Source of the DNA: Natronogracilivirga saccharolytica
Lineage (GTDB): Bacteria; Bacteroidota; Rhodothermia; Balneolales; Natronogracilivirgulaceae
Length of the DNA: 59,521 nt
Assembly: GCF_017921895.1 (NCBI RefSeq)
Contig: NZ_JAFIDN010000014.1
Coordinates: forward strand, 1 to 59,521
Reading direction: 5' to 3'
Of the stretch, positions 5,470 to 19,071 are shown one piece after another; the first letter of the stretch is position 1; each line of letters begins with the position of its first letter. Both the position numbers and the translations under genes were made by a program. Under the pieces are notes generated by a model. The model searched no databases, had not been told where the DNA came from, and worked only from the letters and a program-made list of their open reading frames with translations.

Positions 5470-5622
5470 ATTGTTTTCTCGGTTTATTTATAATGAGTGA
5501 ATGAATCGATATGTATGCTTATTTTACCTTAGACTTTTTGAAGTCGTATAATATAAGGCTGACTTGCTAGTTCACTTTTTGTTATTTACCCTTTATTTTT
5601 GCATAGTATTTTTATCACTTTG

Positions 5623-5778
5623 CTATGCTATTCTTCTGCCCTGGATTACTTGAAGTAATATTGCAATTGCAGCTATAACCAACAGGATATGAATAATGCC
5701 TCCAGCACTATAGCCTGCAAATCCGATTAACCAGGCAACTACTAAAACTACAGCAACCAGGTATAATATATTTCCCAT
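5623..5778 (-). CDS. Lmo0937-family small membrane protein (DUF5670-like)
   Basis: A 51-residue frame starts with ATG at 5778 and ends with TAG at 5623. The product begins MGNILYLVAVVLVVAWLIGF, continues with a glycine-rich turn (AGYSAGG) and a second helix (IIHILLVIAAIAILLQVI), and ends in QGRRIA. This is the characteristic pattern of the lmo0937/DUF5670 family: two membrane helices, a W-[LI]-[IL]-G-F motif and a short basic tail. Function is unknown; members commonly occur beside stress genes in many phyla. No strong Shine-Dalgarno sequence is visible, as is usual in Bacteroidota. Confidence 0.8.
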   Translation of the reverse strand: MGNILYLVAVVLVVAWLIGFAGYSAGGIIHILLVIAAIAILLQVIQGRRIA

Positions 5779-6305
5779 GGTATTTCTGATTTTTTTTAGA
5801 TTTATATATCAGAGACTCTTATCACTGTTATTGTATTATTATCCTTCTGCTTGCAGGAACATGTATAAACGTATATGCCCATTTACAATGTGTGAGAATT
5901 ATAACTGATGAATGTTACATGGACACGATATAAAGTTATATATTTTACAGATAGTACAATCTTCATAGCCTGAACCCTCTGCAGTCATAATGCAAAAGGA
6001 GTTCTGCAGTGTGCAATTATTTCAGAATAGTCTAGAAATCAGACACAACGTTTCCGTTTCAGCAAAGTTCATGGAGAGGTATATCACAAGGAGACTGTCG
6101 GTATAATATTCAAGAGAGCGACCGAATTGGTAAAAATCATGCCGGAAGCATTCAAACTCAAAGTCAATGCAAAAAACCTGTGATCTATGTAACACTTATA
6201 CCATAACGCATAATGCATGTCAGCATAAATGTTCTCAAATTTTCATTTAGGAGAGCAATTTACCGTATCCCGGAATGATGGATCATAAAATAACAAAGGG
6301 AAATC
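5779..6305. other. Long intergenic stretch, no clear gene
   Basis: These 527 AT-rich bases separate two small membrane protein genes. A 38-codon ATG frame at 5990-6106 (+) has no supporting features. A second frame ends at 6183, lacks a start codon before its upstream stop, and encodes VHGEVYHKETVGIIFKRAT and KLKVNAKNL, which reads like the tail of a degraded gene. I cannot name the family. Promoters for the flanking divergent genes must lie here, but no convincing box was seen. Confidence 0.4.
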
Positions 6306-12736: not shown

Positions 12737-14121
12737 TAAGCCCTCCCTCGAACGTCAATTTTACCCGTCACCGCCGCTGAAATAAGTGCGATTCGGTATT
12801 CGGTGAGGCGTTCGATGGCTTTGTTGGTTTCGGTTGTCAACAAATCTATTTTATGGATTTTATTATTGATGTAATTCACAATATCTAATTGTTCATCAAT
12901 CGGTGGAACGGGTATTGGCTCATTTAGTAAATATTGTGATTCAATGCTTTGAACAGTAGTGCCGGGCTTTGTTAAGACATGTAACAAAGCGCTCTGATTA
13001 CCATGTATTAGTAATGCCAAGTATTCACTATCCAACATTTTTTTGGGCATTAGTGCCCTCATATCCTGATTGATTGTTACGCCAGTTTTATTAATCGCTA
13101 CTGGAAGCGAATGAATCAGAATTCCTGATCTAACAACTATTAAAACTGATTTTGGTGCCACTATTCTTCTGAAAACCTCATTAACTGCAAGTTCAGTAAC
13201 ATAGTCTTCTGTCTCAGAAATATATCGATGCTTCATGTCTTTTGGGGATACCCATGGTATATCACCATCCCAATAATCGACTACTTTAGTATTCGGAGTA
13301 AAGCCACCAGAAAAATCACATGTATACTTAAGTTTCTTCATCTCCCAATGCTCCGGCACATCTCCCAGCCATTCGATCCCGGATGGTTTCAGCTGGACAT
13401 CTGGGTTAATACCCTTGGTAACCGCATGGGTGATGATCGCCTGGCGCTTTTCTTTCAGCAGATCCAGGAGTTTTTGCTTGGCTTCGATCAGATCATCGAT
13501 CTTCCGGGTTTGGTCGTCGAGAAAGCGGGCGATGACTTGTTGTTCATCAAGAGGCGGAGAAAGAAGCTCAACAGATGCTAATTGTCCATAGCTCAACTCA
13601 GTAAACGTTGTTCCACGGCCTCTTGAAGACAATTCTGAACCAGCAGATAAAAGTTGGTAATAGAAAAATTTACTATCCAGGGTTTTGTTAGGTGCCAATA
13701 TTCGACATCCCTGATTACAGCATAACGAAACTCCGGCAATGGCGACATAACCAATTGGAGCACGTGTAGAAACAACAATGCTATTCGGTGGTGCTATTGT
13801 AGCCCCACAGCTATTGTATCCACTTTGGCTAATTCTTCTTCTTGAGTCACGAATATCTGAATCAGAATTTTTGCTTAGATCATCCGGTGTTACCCATACA
13901 ATATCTCCATCCCAGTATGAACTTTCACTACTCGAAGGAGTTGAGCCATTTAATATTTTAAAAAATCGCCGTGACTGAATTACCTCCCAATGGTCCGGCA
14001 CATCACCCAACCAATCAACACTGGTCGGCTTATACGACGGATACGGTTCAAACCGCTTGATGCCAGCCACGTCCAGCGTCTGTTCGACTTCTTGCAGAAT
14101 ATCGGGATCTACCTTGTTCAT
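12736..14121 (-). CDS. hsdS: Type I restriction specificity subunit S
   Basis: The 461-residue protein has two target recognition domains. The first opens at WLGDVPDHWEVIQSRRFF (about residue 33) and the second at WLGDVPEHWEMKKLKYTC. Conserved helical spacers follow each: LDEQQVIARFLDDQTRKIDD and IDEQLDIVNYINNKIHKID, then ITHAVTKGI and LISAAVTGKID. Each domain reads half of a bipartite DNA site and the helices set the gap. Start and stop overlap the flanking hsd genes (4 bases with hsdM, 1 base with hsdR). The two domains differ in sequence, so the recognised site is asymmetric; the site itself cannot be read from sequence alone. Confidence 0.94.
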   Translation of the reverse strand: MNKVDPDILQEVEQTLDVAGIKRFEPYPSYKPTSVDWLGDVPDHWEVIQSRRFFKILNGSTPSSSESSYWDGDIVWVTPDDLSKNSDSDIRDSRRRISQSGYNSCGATIAPPNSIVVSTRAPIGYVAIAGVSLCCNQGCRILAPNKTLDSKFFYYQLLSAGSELSSRGRGTTFTELSYGQLASVELLSPPLDEQQVIARFLDDQTRKIDDLIEAKQKLLDLLKEKRQAIITHAVTKGINPDVQLKPSGIEWLGDVPEHWEMKKLKYTCDFSGGFTPNTKVVDYWDGDIPWVSPKDMKHRYISETEDYVTELAVNEVFRRIVAPKSVLIVVRSGILIHSLPVAINKTGVTINQDMRALMPKKMLDSEYLALLIHGNQSALLHVLTKPGTTVQSIESQYLLNEPIPVPPIDEQLDIVNYINNKIHKIDLLTTETNKAIERLTEYRIALISAAVTGKIDVRGRA

Positions 14122-16202
14122 GCCACCACCTCCTTGAGCATCCCGACAATATCCTTCTCCAGTTCAGCCAGGTCTTCCTGTATCTCCTCTAATGGCCGTG
14201 GCGGTTCATACTGGTAGAAGTGACGGGTAAGCGGGATTTCGTAGCCGACACGTGTTTTATTATGATCGATCCAGGCGTCCGGAACATGCGGCAGTACCTC
14301 CCGCTGGAAATACGCTTCAATGTCTTCTTTCAGCGGAACGACCTCTGTATCCTTGAGTTCCGGGTCGGGTTCGGGCTCACCTTTGCTGTTGCGACATATC
14401 TCGGCCGTCTCATCGCGTTCCGATAGTGCCGACAACACAACTTTTCTCTCCGTGGCCGATAGCTTGTCACCTGCCGTTTGACGTTCGACTTTCTTCAGAA
14501 CGCCCAGAAACGCTTCCCGGTCTTTGAACTGCTCTTCTCCGGTCTGTTGACGCAACATCTCCAATACTTCCCGGATGGCCTGCTGCCGCTTTTGCCCCGC
14601 CTCAATTTCTTTCTGACGAGCCTTCTCACTGGTCTTCTTGCTGTTGGTCAGATTGACAAAGGCCTTTTCTTCCTCTATACGGGCAATGCGCTCTGAGGAC
14701 GCCTGAAAGTTCAACCGCAGCGGGCGTTCTACGGTAATCTTGTGGTATCCGAAATCCTCGTTGTCGAACACCTTGCTGACCACCATTTCCTTTTCTCCAC
14801 CATTGACGGGTACGGTCCGGGTGTCATCATGGATAAACTCACCGTAAATCTTGCTGATCAACCCGATCTGATCCGGCCGGCCATTCTTTCCTTCACCGAT
14901 CTGACGCCGCTTATGGCCCAGGCTCTTGCGCATGGGCACCCAGAACTGCCGGGCATCGACCAGTTGCACCTTGCCCTTTCGGTGCCGGGGCTTGCGATTG
15001 GACAGTATCCAGATATAGGTAGATATGCCGGTATTGTAGAACATCTGCTCAGGCAGAGCGACGATTCCCTCAAGCCAGTCATTTTCGATGATCCAGCGGC
15101 GTATCTCCGATTCTCCGGAGCCGGCATCGCCTGTAAACAGAGGTGATCCGTTGAAAACGATTCCGATGCGGCTGCCGCCTTTCTTCGGATCTTCCATCTT
15201 GGAAATCATATGCTGCAGGAACAGCAGGGCGCCATCATTGATCCGTGGCAGCCCGGCTCCGAACCGGCCATCATGACCCATGGTCTTGTGTTCTTTTTCG
15301 ATGAACTGCTTCTGCTGCTTCCACTCCACACCGAACGGCGGATTGGCCATCATGTAGTCGAAGGTCTCTTCCTTGAAACCATCATCGGAAAAGCTGTCAC
15401 CGGGCTTGATGTTCTCGGCGTTTTCCCCTTTGAGCAGCATATCGGACTTGCAGATCGCGAAAGCCTCATCGTTCCAGTCCTGGCCGTACAGGTATGGCTG
15501 GGCGTCCTTATTAAGCTCCCGGATATATTGTTCCGCCATGGATAACATACCCCCCGTACCGCATGCCGGGTCAAAGATTTTTTTGACGACATGGGGCTCG
15601 CCGAGGTCATCCTCATTGGTCAGCAGCAGCTCAACCATCAAGTGGATGATTTCCCTGGGCGTGAAGTGCTCTCCGGCTTCTTCATTAGCCTGTTCGGCTC
15701 CAACCCGGATCAGCTCTTCGAATATGTATCCCATCTGAAGGTTGTCAATCCGCCCCGGGGAGAGGTCAATCGCCGCAAATGATTTGATCACCTCATATAG
15801 CAGGTTCTTTTCATTCAGCCGCTCGATATGATCAGAGAAGCTGAACCGTTCCATGATCTGACGCACGTTCGGCGAGAAGGCGTGCAGGTAGCTGTTCAGG
15901 TTGGTCGCCAGACTGTTCGGGTCATCCAGCAGTTTCTGGAAATCGAGTTTGGATGTATTGTAGAATCTGGAGCCGGTAACATGAGTCAGCCGGGAGCGGA
16001 TAATGTTTTCGCTCTTGCCTTTCAATTTGTCGAATTCGTTTAATACTTATTTTTTGGTCGGTTCGAGGATGCAGTCAAACCGGCGTATTACGGTCAACGG
16101 CAGAATGACCTTTCGGTATTCGTTGCGTTTATACGGCCCCCGGAGCAGGTTGCAGATACTCCAGATGAAATTGGCCATTTGTGAATGTGTCTCAGGGGAC
16201 AT
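14118..16202 (-). pseudogene. hsdM: Type I DNA methyltransferase subunit M, interrupted by a stop codon
   Basis: The natural start appears to be ATG 16202: a strong ribosome site (AAGGAGA) lies about 9 bases before it, and the product begins MSPETHSQMANFIWSICNLL, RGPYKRNEYRKVILPLTVIR, the normal HsdM N-terminal domain. Codon 52 is TAA (16047-16049). The same frame then continues VLNEFDKLKGKSENI exactly as expected, so this is a single nonsense change and not a frameshift. Downstream, the methyltransferase is intact: FDPACGTGGM (SAM binding), MANPPFG (catalytic NPPF) and a long helical tail. A TTG at 16025 could restart a 635-residue protein lacking the first domain. Because HsdM is needed for both modification and restriction, the system may be off unless restart or readthrough works. 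Confidence 0.85.
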
Positions 16203-16386
16203 GTAAAAGTATCTCCTTGATTATTGCTTCCGTGAAAATGATTCAGCAGGACAATTTATGCTACTCGGAAGCGAACGGCAAGAAGTATAAAATCACCTTC
16301 TTTCTCCTGATAATTTATTCTCGAAAAGCCACGAAGTATTTATAATTGATACTCAACAAGAGAATCCTCAAAAAAACAGAGAGCTT

Positions 16387-16710
16387 ATGAACCTTGAAAC
16401 GTATATCCGAGAAGTCATACAAGAAGAGGTGCGGACAGTAGTCCGGGAAGAGCTTGTAGAGGTAATGGATGAAATCAAAGCTTCAAAACAGAACCGGGAG
16501 CCAAAACAGCATCCCGGAATGCCGAAAAAATATATTATTCGTCCCAATGAGCTTTGCAAGATGTTAGCAGTATCAAGATCAACCTTATGGAGAATGGAAA
16601 ATGTAGGGCGACTTCCTGATAGGGTCAAAATTGGACCCAGAACCGTGGGGTGGTATAATACAGACATCGAAGAATGGCTGGAGCAAAATAGAAGAAATCC
16701 TGACAGCTGA
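16387..16710 (+). CDS. AlpA-like helix-turn-helix regulator
   Basis: The 107-residue protein has an N-terminal charged coiled coil (IREVIQEEVRTVVREELVEV, residues about 7-35) and a C-terminal winged-helix domain of the AlpA/excisionase type (YIIRPNELCKMLAVSRSTLW, RMENVGRLPDRVKIGPRTVG, WYNTDIEEWLEQNR). AlpA-like proteins regulate integrase or excision genes of prophages and islands. No integrase gene is present beside it, but the tmRNA gene, a frequent integration target, starts 254 bases downstream. It is divergent from the hsd operon and separated by 184 bases, so it could also act on hsdM; that is inference. Confidence 0.8.
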   Translation: MNLETYIREVIQEEVRTVVREELVEVMDEIKASKQNREPKQHPGMPKKYIIRPNELCKMLAVSRSTLWRMENVGRLPDRVKIGPRTVGWYNTDIEEWLEQNRRNPDS

Positions 16711-16885
16711 ACGGCTGAAGAGTGTCAAATCGGAAGGGGCTTGCTTCAATTACAAAATAATGGACCGATCAGAACCTCACGAACTGTCAGATTCATCTGG
16801 TCCTGACAAGGATGACAATAATGACTCTCTGAAAAAAAGTTTTTTTTGAAGCCCTGGAAGCAGACAGTTAAAAAATCCAGAGTAT

Positions 16886-16909
16886 ATTGGTACCAATATT
16901 GGTACCAAT
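16886..16909. repeat. Tandem pair of a 12-bp perfect palindrome
   Basis: ATTGGTACCAAT occurs twice with no gap (16886-16897 and 16898-16909). Each copy is its own reverse complement, so the whole could bind two dimers of a regulator or act as a recombination core. It lies between the AlpA-like gene and the 3' end of ssrA. Confidence 0.75.
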
Positions 16910-16910
16910 A

Positions 16911-16953: not shown

Positions 16954-16963
16954 ATAATACAAG

Positions 16964-17333
16964 TGGAGGTGCCGGGAATTGAACCCGGGTCCGAGATGAC
17001 GAACCATCAAGCTTCTACATGCTTAGTTGCCCTATATCATCTCACCTGAAGGGTCGCCGGGCAACGAGGCTGTCTTCAGGCCAGGCCGGGTCAGGTTTCG
17101 GATAACGCCACCGACCGGGACGTTACCCTATCTTGCCTTGATTTGGCGCCCTCAGAGGCAGTTGGCAAGAAAACCGCCAGGAGGACGGAATGGCGCTGTT
17201 AGGCAGCCATTCGATACTGAGTATTGTCAGCATTTACATTTAAAGTGCCACCGATTTTTTTACGAGAATCCGCGACGGAAACTCGGCATGCAACTTGTGA
17301 CTGCGCTCACCCCGTCGAAGCCATGTCACCCCC
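16964..17333 (-). ncRNA. ssrA: Transfer-messenger RNA (tmRNA)
   Basis: The minus strand begins GGGGGTGACATGGCTTCGAC (17333 leftward) and ends GGGTTCAATTCCCGGCACCT followed by CCA-like discriminator sequence at 16964. The 5' GGGGGTG pairs with the 3' CACCTCC to form the acceptor stem (one G-U). The T-arm GGACCCGGGTTCAATTCCCGG is intact. The tag frame ends at the TAA 17199-17201 and encodes probably ADNTQYRMAA (17202-17231), with the AA end that proteases recognise; the exact resume codon is not certain. tmRNA frees stalled ribosomes. CCA is not encoded beyond the discriminator base. Its 3' end faces the accessory region, as expected for an island that entered at ssrA. Confidence 0.95.
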
Positions 17334-17611: not shown

Positions 17612-18793
17612 ATGAAAATTGCCGTTATCGGTGCCGGTCCTGCCGGCTCGGCCATCACGAGGGTTTTGATGGATTACAAAGAGGTACAAAACCTGGTCGT
17701 ACTGGACCGCAACGGAGCCGTTCTTGATGAGCTGAAGGAAAGCTTCTCCGGTCACCCTTCCCTCTCCCGCTTACGCACATTCCGCGTGGGAATGCAGGAA
17801 CGCTCATCTATCATCACACTCGTTAATGGCTTTGATGTGATGATATCCGCACTCCCGTATCAGTACAACCTTGAGATGACCAAAATTGCCATCGAAACCG
17901 GAAGTCACTTTCTTGATCTCGGAGGCAATGACAAGGTCTTTGAAATGCAGCGAAAGCTCGATAAACAGGCTGAGCAAAACGGCAGCTGCATTCTGCCCAA
18001 TTGCGGACTGGCTCCCGGACTCCTGAATATTATAGCAATGAACGGATTCCGCCAGTTCGAAACGGTCTCATCCATTGAAATGATGAGTGGTGGTCTGCCG
18101 GTCAATCCTCATCCGCCTTTGAATCATCATCTCAGCTTTTCTGCCGAAGCCTTTTTGAGTGAACATCTTCCACCGGTGCTGGCTGTTCGCGACGGACGGC
18201 CCGTCGATCTTGAGCCAATGAGCGGACTGGAGCCCATTACTTTTCAATCACGCCCGGAAATGACGGCCCTCGAGACCTTTTACACCGGCGGGCACATAAG
18301 CACCCTGGCCTACACCCTTCAGGGCTCGGTCAGCAACCTCTCCTACAAAACCATCCGTCACCGCGGAAATCACAGTGTCATGCAGGCGCTGATCGAATTG
18401 GGACTCGCCGATGACCGTATCATCGATATCGGCACAAGCATGACTTACAAAGATTTTCTGATCCGCAAACTGCGAAAGCGGATTCCCGAGAATCTGCCCG
18501 ATATTGTACTCGCGAAAGTAATTATCGACGGGCAAAACGGATCAGGCGGCAACAGTAAAAAGCTCAGGCGGACATATGAACTGACCTATGAGTACCATCC
18601 GGATGACGGTCATTCCGCGGTTATGAGCTGCACGGCTCTGCCAACAGCGCATATTGCCCTGATGCTTGCACGGGGTGAAATCAGTGCCCGTCCCGGTGTC
18701 CATCCGCCGGAACAGATTGTGCCGGCAGAGTCCTTTCTCGATGCCATGAAGCAGTACGGCATCGAAATCAGTATACACGACAGCAGTGCATGA
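17612..18793 (+). CDS. Saccharopine dehydrogenase family protein
   Basis: The 393-residue protein opens with a Rossmann nucleotide site (MKIAVIGAGPAGSAITRVL) and carries family landmarks: GFDVMISALPYQYN, GSHFLDLGG, LPNCGLAPGLLNIIAM. The family oxidises or reduces secondary amines such as saccharopine in lysine metabolism, or acts on other opine-like compounds. Bacterial single-domain members often have an undefined substrate, and that is the case here. The start is at the first ATG after the ssrA upstream region. A TPP riboswitch begins 143 bases after the stop, so it is not part of the thiamin operon. Confidence 0.85.
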   Translation: MKIAVIGAGPAGSAITRVLMDYKEVQNLVVLDRNGAVLDELKESFSGHPSLSRLRTFRVGMQERSSIITLVNGFDVMISALPYQYNLEMTKIAIETGSHFLDLGGNDKVFEMQRKLDKQAEQNGSCILPNCGLAPGLLNIIAMNGFRQFETVSSIEMMSGGLPVNPHPPLNHHLSFSAEAFLSEHLPPVLAVRDGRPVDLEPMSGLEPITFQSRPEMTALETFYTGGHISTLAYTLQGSVSNLSYKTIRHRGNHSVMQALIELGLADDRIIDIGTSMTYKDFLIRKLRKRIPENLPDIVLAKVIIDGQNGSGGNSKKLRRTYELTYEYHPDDGHSAVMSCTALPTAHIALMLARGEISARPGVHPPEQIVPAESFLDAMKQYGIEISIHDSSA

Positions 18794-18935
18794 GCCGGCC
18801 TCCCGGTCACCCGGGCCGGTTGCGCATAAACCCGGTCTGCGGAAGTGCCCGGTTCTGAAACCTTGTAAATGAATGATTGCATGATTGTGCTTGTTACTTA
18901 GTGGTAACATCACATTTTGGATTTACCAATTTACC

Positions 18936-19012
18936 ATAGGGGTGCCGTTTTCAGCGGCTGAGAGCATACCCTCATAAACCTGATCCGGATAATGCCGGCG
19001 AAGGGAATGGAT
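18936..19012 (+). promoter_or_regulatory. TPP riboswitch (THI element)
   Basis: The core is standard: GGGGTGCC (P2 side), GGCTGAGAGCATACCCTCA, AACCTGATCCGGATAATGCC and GGCGAAGGGAA. The CTGAGA and ACCTGATCCGG segments form the two sensor arms that bind the pyrimidine and the pyrophosphate of thiamin diphosphate. It precedes thiM by about 160 bases and should turn the operon down when TPP is plentiful, through the terminator just after it. Confidence 0.95.
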
Positions 19013-19016
19013 ATCA

Positions 19017-19071
19017 AACCATATATCCTTTTCCGGCAGCATCAGCGCACAGGGATGTATGGTTTTTTTTT
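19017..19071 (+). terminator. Riboswitch-controlled intrinsic terminator
   Basis: AACCATATATCC (19017-19028) pairs with GGATGTATGGTT (19053-19064) with one G-U, followed at once by nine T residues (19063-19071). This is the expression platform of the TPP riboswitch. It implies control by premature transcription termination instead of by hiding the start site. Confidence 0.85.

Follow-up and report, generated by a model that had tools for sequence, protein, structure and literature searches.

A type I restriction-modification operon

The window, that is, the whole stretch of 59,521 nucleotides of Natronogracilivirga saccharolytica that was analysed, carries the three genes of a type I restriction-modification system (Table 1). 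As in known type I systems, these genes lie in the order hsdM-hsdS-hsdR and overlap: the end of hsdM shares four bases with hsdS, and the end of hsdS a single base with hsdR. The domains are also those of type I systems, namely HsdM_N and N6_Mtase in HsdM, two Methylase_S domains in HsdS, and HSDR_N with a SWI2/SNF2 helicase in HsdR.

Table 1. Positions of the hsd genes, of the features within hsdM and of neighbouring genes in the window
Feature	Position	Strand	Remarks
hsdR, restriction subunit, 1034 aa	9632..12736	-	TAATG overlap with hsdS; own GGAGG site
hsdS, specificity subunit, 461 aa	12736..14121	-	ATGA overlap with the end of hsdM; own AAGGAGG site
hsdM, modification subunit	14118..16202	-	695 codons, counting the internal stop and the terminal TGA
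TTG-started hsdM frame, 635 aa	14118..16025	-	N6_Mtase domain kept; HsdM residues 1-59 missing
In-frame TAA, codon 52 of hsdM	16047..16049	-	Read from the sequence
N-terminal piece of hsdM, 51 codons	16050..16202	-	Residues 12-51 are the highest-identity segment measured
AAGGAG ribosome site of hsdM	16213..16218	-	10 bases before ATG 16202
AlpA-like regulator	16387..16710	+	Divergent from hsdM; at most a candidate member of the hsd unit
tmRNA gene (ssrA)	16961..17333	-	Adjoins the hsd operon; context

In hsdM, the PADLOC model MTase_I scored 864 bits and N6_Mtase (PF02384) 196.7 bits. The fold predicted for HsdM, read through its internal stop, matches the M subunits of PacII, S. thermophilus, EcoR124I and others, with Z scores from 34.9 to 23.7. 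Two Methylase_S stretches (PF01420), corresponding to two target-recognition domains, were found in hsdS, and nuclease and helicase domains (PF04313, PF18766, PF04851 and PF22679) in hsdR. Both genes are open frames with the expected domains, which bears out an earlier description of them as intact. All three products score below the cut-offs of the NCBIfam models that they match: 92.9 bits against 242.75 for the 635-residue hsdM frame (TIGR00497), 79.6 against 662 for hsdS (NF007278), and 173 against 285 for hsdR (TIGR00348).

The position of hsdM next to a tmRNA gene and an AlpA-like regulator suggests an integration hotspot. A site-specific island at the tmRNA gene was considered and set aside: no attachment-site duplicate was found, since the 3' end of the gene (22 bases, with at most two mismatches) occurs once in the genome, which would leave room for a shorter or more diverged duplicate. 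Among 14 relatives compared, a dehydrogenase-like gene, here at 17612, adjoins the tmRNA gene in eight; hsdM and alpA are absent from the flanks (about 1.5 kb on each side) in all 14. Between the tmRNA terminator and alpA, a 12-base tandem repeat, TTGGTACCAATA x2, starts at 16887 (window 16884-16910), and is possibly a regulator site. On the other side of the operon, next to hsdR, the segment 6866-9500 holds mobile-element remnants. These are an IS200 transposase with an open frame, a frame for a sigma-54 activator whose upstream part seems to be missing, and two weakly matching pieces, one of an integrase core and one of a reverse transcriptase. A TPP riboswitch (74 bits) lies at 18928-19023, followed by frames that we take, from their sequences, to be thiamine genes.

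A nonsense codon in hsdM

The hsdM frame opens at ATG 16202-16200 and runs for 51 codons to a TAA at 16049-16047, after which 642 codons follow in the same frame to the normal end, a TGA at 14120-14118. The sequence-only reading had placed a stop inside the N-terminal domain, in a frame that resumes in the same phase and starts behind a strong ribosome site, and all of this is confirmed. In a profile search of the genome, HsdM_N (PF12161) spans the stop, matching 15777-16175 with 100.3 bits (cut-off 24.5) and one TAA inside the match. Between 16202 and 14118, the hsdM frame has two stops in 695 codons, compared to 21 and 40 in the other frames of the same strand and 10, 21 and 31 in the antisense frames; because the counts are so much higher in the other five, the TAA is taken as a single interruption of an otherwise coding frame. 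The interruption at codon 52 sets this hsdM apart from known type I systems. The gene ends at that codon, and the locus does not encode three full-length subunits.

Comparison with relatives

The nature of the change was investigated in 82 relatives, that is, the best 80 of 458 confirmed loci and two further regions (L096 and L097). Codon 52 was covered in 79 of these, three loci (L027, L057 and L068) showing no match to that part of the gene. None of the 79 has a stop at this codon, and none has a gap. The residue is alanine in 25, lysine in 24, glutamine in 16 and another in 14, and in 20 relatives the codon is one substitution away from TAA. Since the covering relatives align without gap or stop, the lesion is a substitution, rather than slippage, at a tolerant position of hsdM. 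The proposal of a single base change in an otherwise open gene is thus supported by gap-free relatives and by the same frame on both sides. By the same two observations, the run of six A preceding the TAA is rejected as the site of a frameshift or of slippage, and a conserved programmed stop is rejected by its absence from all 79 relatives.

Nor does the locus resemble a phase-variable type I system: the change is an ungapped substitution, the genome has one HsdS, and no switch element was found. Neither hsdM nor hsdS contains a tandem array at a score of at least 30, and of the inverted pairs listed, just one falls entirely within hsdS (22 nt, 77% identity). Stop and sense alleles might nevertheless coexist, one part of the population restricting and the other permissive. 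A single change without further decay fits a segregating allele, and spontaneous hsdM mutants are reported to arise in cultures (PMC8084154). Against this, nothing is switchable at the site, where a substitution is found, and tandem arrays are lacking in both genes. Coexisting alleles would therefore mean drift or selection, not phase variation, and we regard such a population variant as most unlikely.

We then considered how often hsdM is damaged among the best 80 of the 458 loci, a copy being called open, by our own criterion, when one stop-free match ran from residue 13 or before to residue 560 or beyond. This was the case for 72 of the 80, including L070, which ends with its contig at residue 566. 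In L057 and L068 the gene is cut by contig ends; L072 and L074 have no match in residues 496-605, their matched parts being stop-free. A frame change was found in L028 and L064, a stop in L050, and in L027 (a Syntrophaceae relative, 5500-6100) no match to the first 97 residues. The last four are the damaged copies among the 77 that are free of contig-end cuts. Damaged hsdM copies would thus occur at a low rate, and some of them may be assembly faults, as many of the relatives are metagenome assemblies.

No near-identical hsdM was found among the best 80 of the 458 loci (best segments at most 72%) or in viral contigs (at most 71%), two sets from which very near records may be omitted. The same holds for 58 relatives and the organism's own genome, where the nearest pieces (84 to 86%) belong to the related genome G002, and for 243 other genomes of the class, in which matches with E of at most 1e-100 were considered.

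These searches bear on whether the TAA is a consensus or assembly error, in which case the true codon would be a sense codon and the system would work. One base decides, the rest of the operon is open, and with no near-identical second copy in the searches made, that base lacks independent confirmation. However, the assembly, in 49 contigs, is of good quality (97.28% complete with 0.49% contamination), and to the right of 17.6 kb the window consists mostly of long open frames. Isolated substitution errors are also rare in a consensus. An error is therefore judged unlikely.

Possible ways around the stop

A second HsdM does not appear to rescue the system. No other HsdM_N match was found in the genome, and apart from hsdM itself N6_Mtase gave a single match, a weak one of 23 bits on contig 2. 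A profile search of the genome revealed no other HsdS.

Translation could also resume downstream of the stop, at TTG 16025, 21 bases past it, or at a later start, giving a shortened working HsdM. The stop and the TTG are close together, as in reinitiation, and the downstream catalytic domain is present, but no ribosome-site match of at least four bases precedes TTG 16025 or the four later starts (GTG 15866, ATG 15854, GTG 15791 and ATG 15734). By contrast, hsdM has a match of six bases, hsdS one of seven and hsdR one of five.

The product itself also argues against such a restart. AlphaFold2, run on the read-through HsdM with 42 relatives from the 80 loci, gave a model with a mean pLDDT of 87.0, in which residues 3-20 and 30-59 form helices. 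The TTG 16025 product starts at residue 60, and so lacks exactly these two predicted helices. It also lacks the segment of highest mean identity: identity to the 42 relatives averages 82.1% over residues 12-51, compared to 70.0% over residues 151-460, the catalytic part, and 55.1% over residues 60-150. Relative to this high mean identity, residues 12-51 have fewer invariant positions than the catalytic part (10 of 40 and 87 of 310, respectively), the proportion being similar or higher in the latter.

The structural context of the missing part could be drawn from chain 5ybb_A, which we take to be HsdM of T. tengcongensis. Residues 132-388 of the present HsdM correspond to 126-360 of this chain in a profile alignment, and residues 1-666 to 4-460 in a fold comparison; on the predicted model, the N-terminal offset between the two proteins is a few residues. 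In the T. tengcongensis protein, helix 30-59, which carries the same residue numbers as the helix predicted here, serves the contact between the two M subunits. Deletion of residues 1-30 is tolerated there, whereas truncation of the protein (TTE-HsdM) by its first 40 or 50 residues prevented the assembly of a stable complex (PMC3047542). Methylation by PacII is reported to be reduced by mutations at the interface, D25A in the N-terminal part of M1 and D33A/D36A/K38A in that of M2 (PMC9613975). The restart at TTG 16025 that the sequence-only reading had entertained is thus not favoured, the start having no ribosome site and its product lacking both helices; we consider a shortened working HsdM very unlikely.

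Alternatively, the 51-residue fragment and the TTG 16025 protein could both be translated and come together as a split methyltransferase of weak activity. If this extremely unlikely arrangement were true, the stop would act as a dimmer, lowering modification and restriction without full loss.

Finally, the TAA could be read through by means of a suppressor or a recoding signal, giving full-length HsdM at a low level. Codon 52 tolerates many residues, and because residue 52 varies among relatives, the little protein made by read-through, if any, would probably retain activity. All 41 tRNA genes found were read by ARAGORN; none has the anticodon TTA, so none reads TAA (the leucine tRNA with anticodon TAA reads TTA), and a TAA-reading tRNA could be missing since the assembly is 97.28% complete. 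Moreover, TAA is the ordinary terminator of nine of 36 hand-chosen frames of the window, and with no stop in any of the 79 relatives there is no conserved signal. With no stop in the 79 relatives and no cognate gene among the 41 tRNA genes found, hsdM does not have the marks of a recoded gene, and we give read-through a practically negligible probability. From the above, we infer that there is no functional restart or read-through.

Age of the probable loss and related loci

If the allele is a loss of function, its age can be bounded by how intact the operon otherwise is: its 6,567 coding bases contain no further stop and no frame break. As a rough 95% upper bound, the neutral substitutions per site since the loss would be 0.040 for hsdM from stops alone, or 0.014 with indels at an assumed tenth of the substitution rate. 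If the whole 6,567-base operon has been unconstrained, these bounds become 0.012 (stops alone) and 0.004 (with the assumed indels). With no second disabling change in the operon, the loss is estimated to be recent in evolutionary terms, and the earlier suggestion of a very recent loss is supported to that extent. An undamaged remainder of hsdM, hsdS and hsdR would, however, also be seen if the variant were rare, if the consensus were wrong, or if the allele were leaky and still functional.

The closest homologue found belongs to another genus of the same family (genome G002), and there the operon is also damaged (L095 8796-11915, contig G002:C297). Its hsdM consists of two pieces, residues 230-387 and 621-694, with 84% amino-acid identity, its hsdS of fragments with a stop, and its hsdR of the pieces 164-544 and 719-1033; the deletions leave the joined hsdM and hsdR frames open. 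The contig ends upstream of the first hsdM piece, and its last 126 bases there match window 9163-9038, in the region of the mobile-element remnants, with 95% identity. Some of these deletions may be assembly faults, as the genome is listed as 80% complete and in 420 contigs. For the retained parts, the comparison with the window gave dN 0.080 and dS 1.41 in hsdR, and dN 0.092 in hsdM, where silent sites are near saturation. Amino-acid change being slow relative to silent change, these values suggest that both operon copies were under selection during most of their separate history.

A second HsdR, full-length with 1049 aa, is encoded on contig 3 of the organism's own genome (G000:C3:173361-176510; L098 8362-11511), where the PADLOC model REase_I scored 1466 bits. 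A YgjP-like metallopeptidase gene lies behind it. No HsdM or HsdS partner was found within the 19 kb read, nor elsewhere in the genome except in the window.

Interpretation

We conclude that the locus is most probably an ordinary type I hsdM-hsdS-hsdR operon with a recent loss-of-function (nonsense) allele of hsdM. Ribosomes would start at ATG 16202 and stop after a fragment of 51 residues. In the absence of full-length HsdM, the methyltransferase (two M subunits and one S) would not form, and HsdR, which acts on the M/S complex, would be left without a partner. Because HsdR depends on the methyltransferase complex, both methylation and restriction activities are very probably lost, and lost together, which would not endanger the cell. 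Type I restriction needs the M2S complex, so that losing M is harmless even with an intact R; the loss of hsdM beside an open hsdR is therefore safe. Silencing of the whole system, as proposed earlier, is probable given the stop and the lack of a second HsdM_N or HsdS match. HsdS and HsdR may still be made, since each gene is preceded by a ribosome site of its own. Translational coupling of the overlapping hsdM and hsdS is described for EcoKI (PMC3510504), and by analogy the stop may also lower HsdS here.

HsdM has 694 positions here, and is longer than nine of eleven solved relatives (499-544; the other two have 445 and 638). The closest printed parallels that we found to its interruption are hsdM mutants of group A Streptococcus (PMC8084154) and the inactivated NgoAV system of Neisseria gonorrhoeae (PMC6789123). 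In group A Streptococcus, spontaneous hsdM mutations, one of them nonsense, were reported in four of ten previously laboratory-transformed isolates. As here, hsdM was lost in a single event and the rest of the locus was retained; unlike here, the mutants came from laboratory-transformed isolates (PMC8084154). NgoAV, too, is inactivated as a whole by a premature stop in a single type I subunit, but that lesion is an hsdS frameshift with homopolymer and repeat variation (PMC6789123), whereas the hsdM lesion here is a substitution, and no switch element was found.

This is ordinary gene loss, not a new mechanism, and the hsdM stop leaves the understanding of how type I systems work unchanged. It would add one more defence system lost by a single mutation while the restriction gene stays open. 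Together, the second HsdR, for which no modification partner was found, and the damaged operon in another genus hint at a turnover of type I systems in the family.
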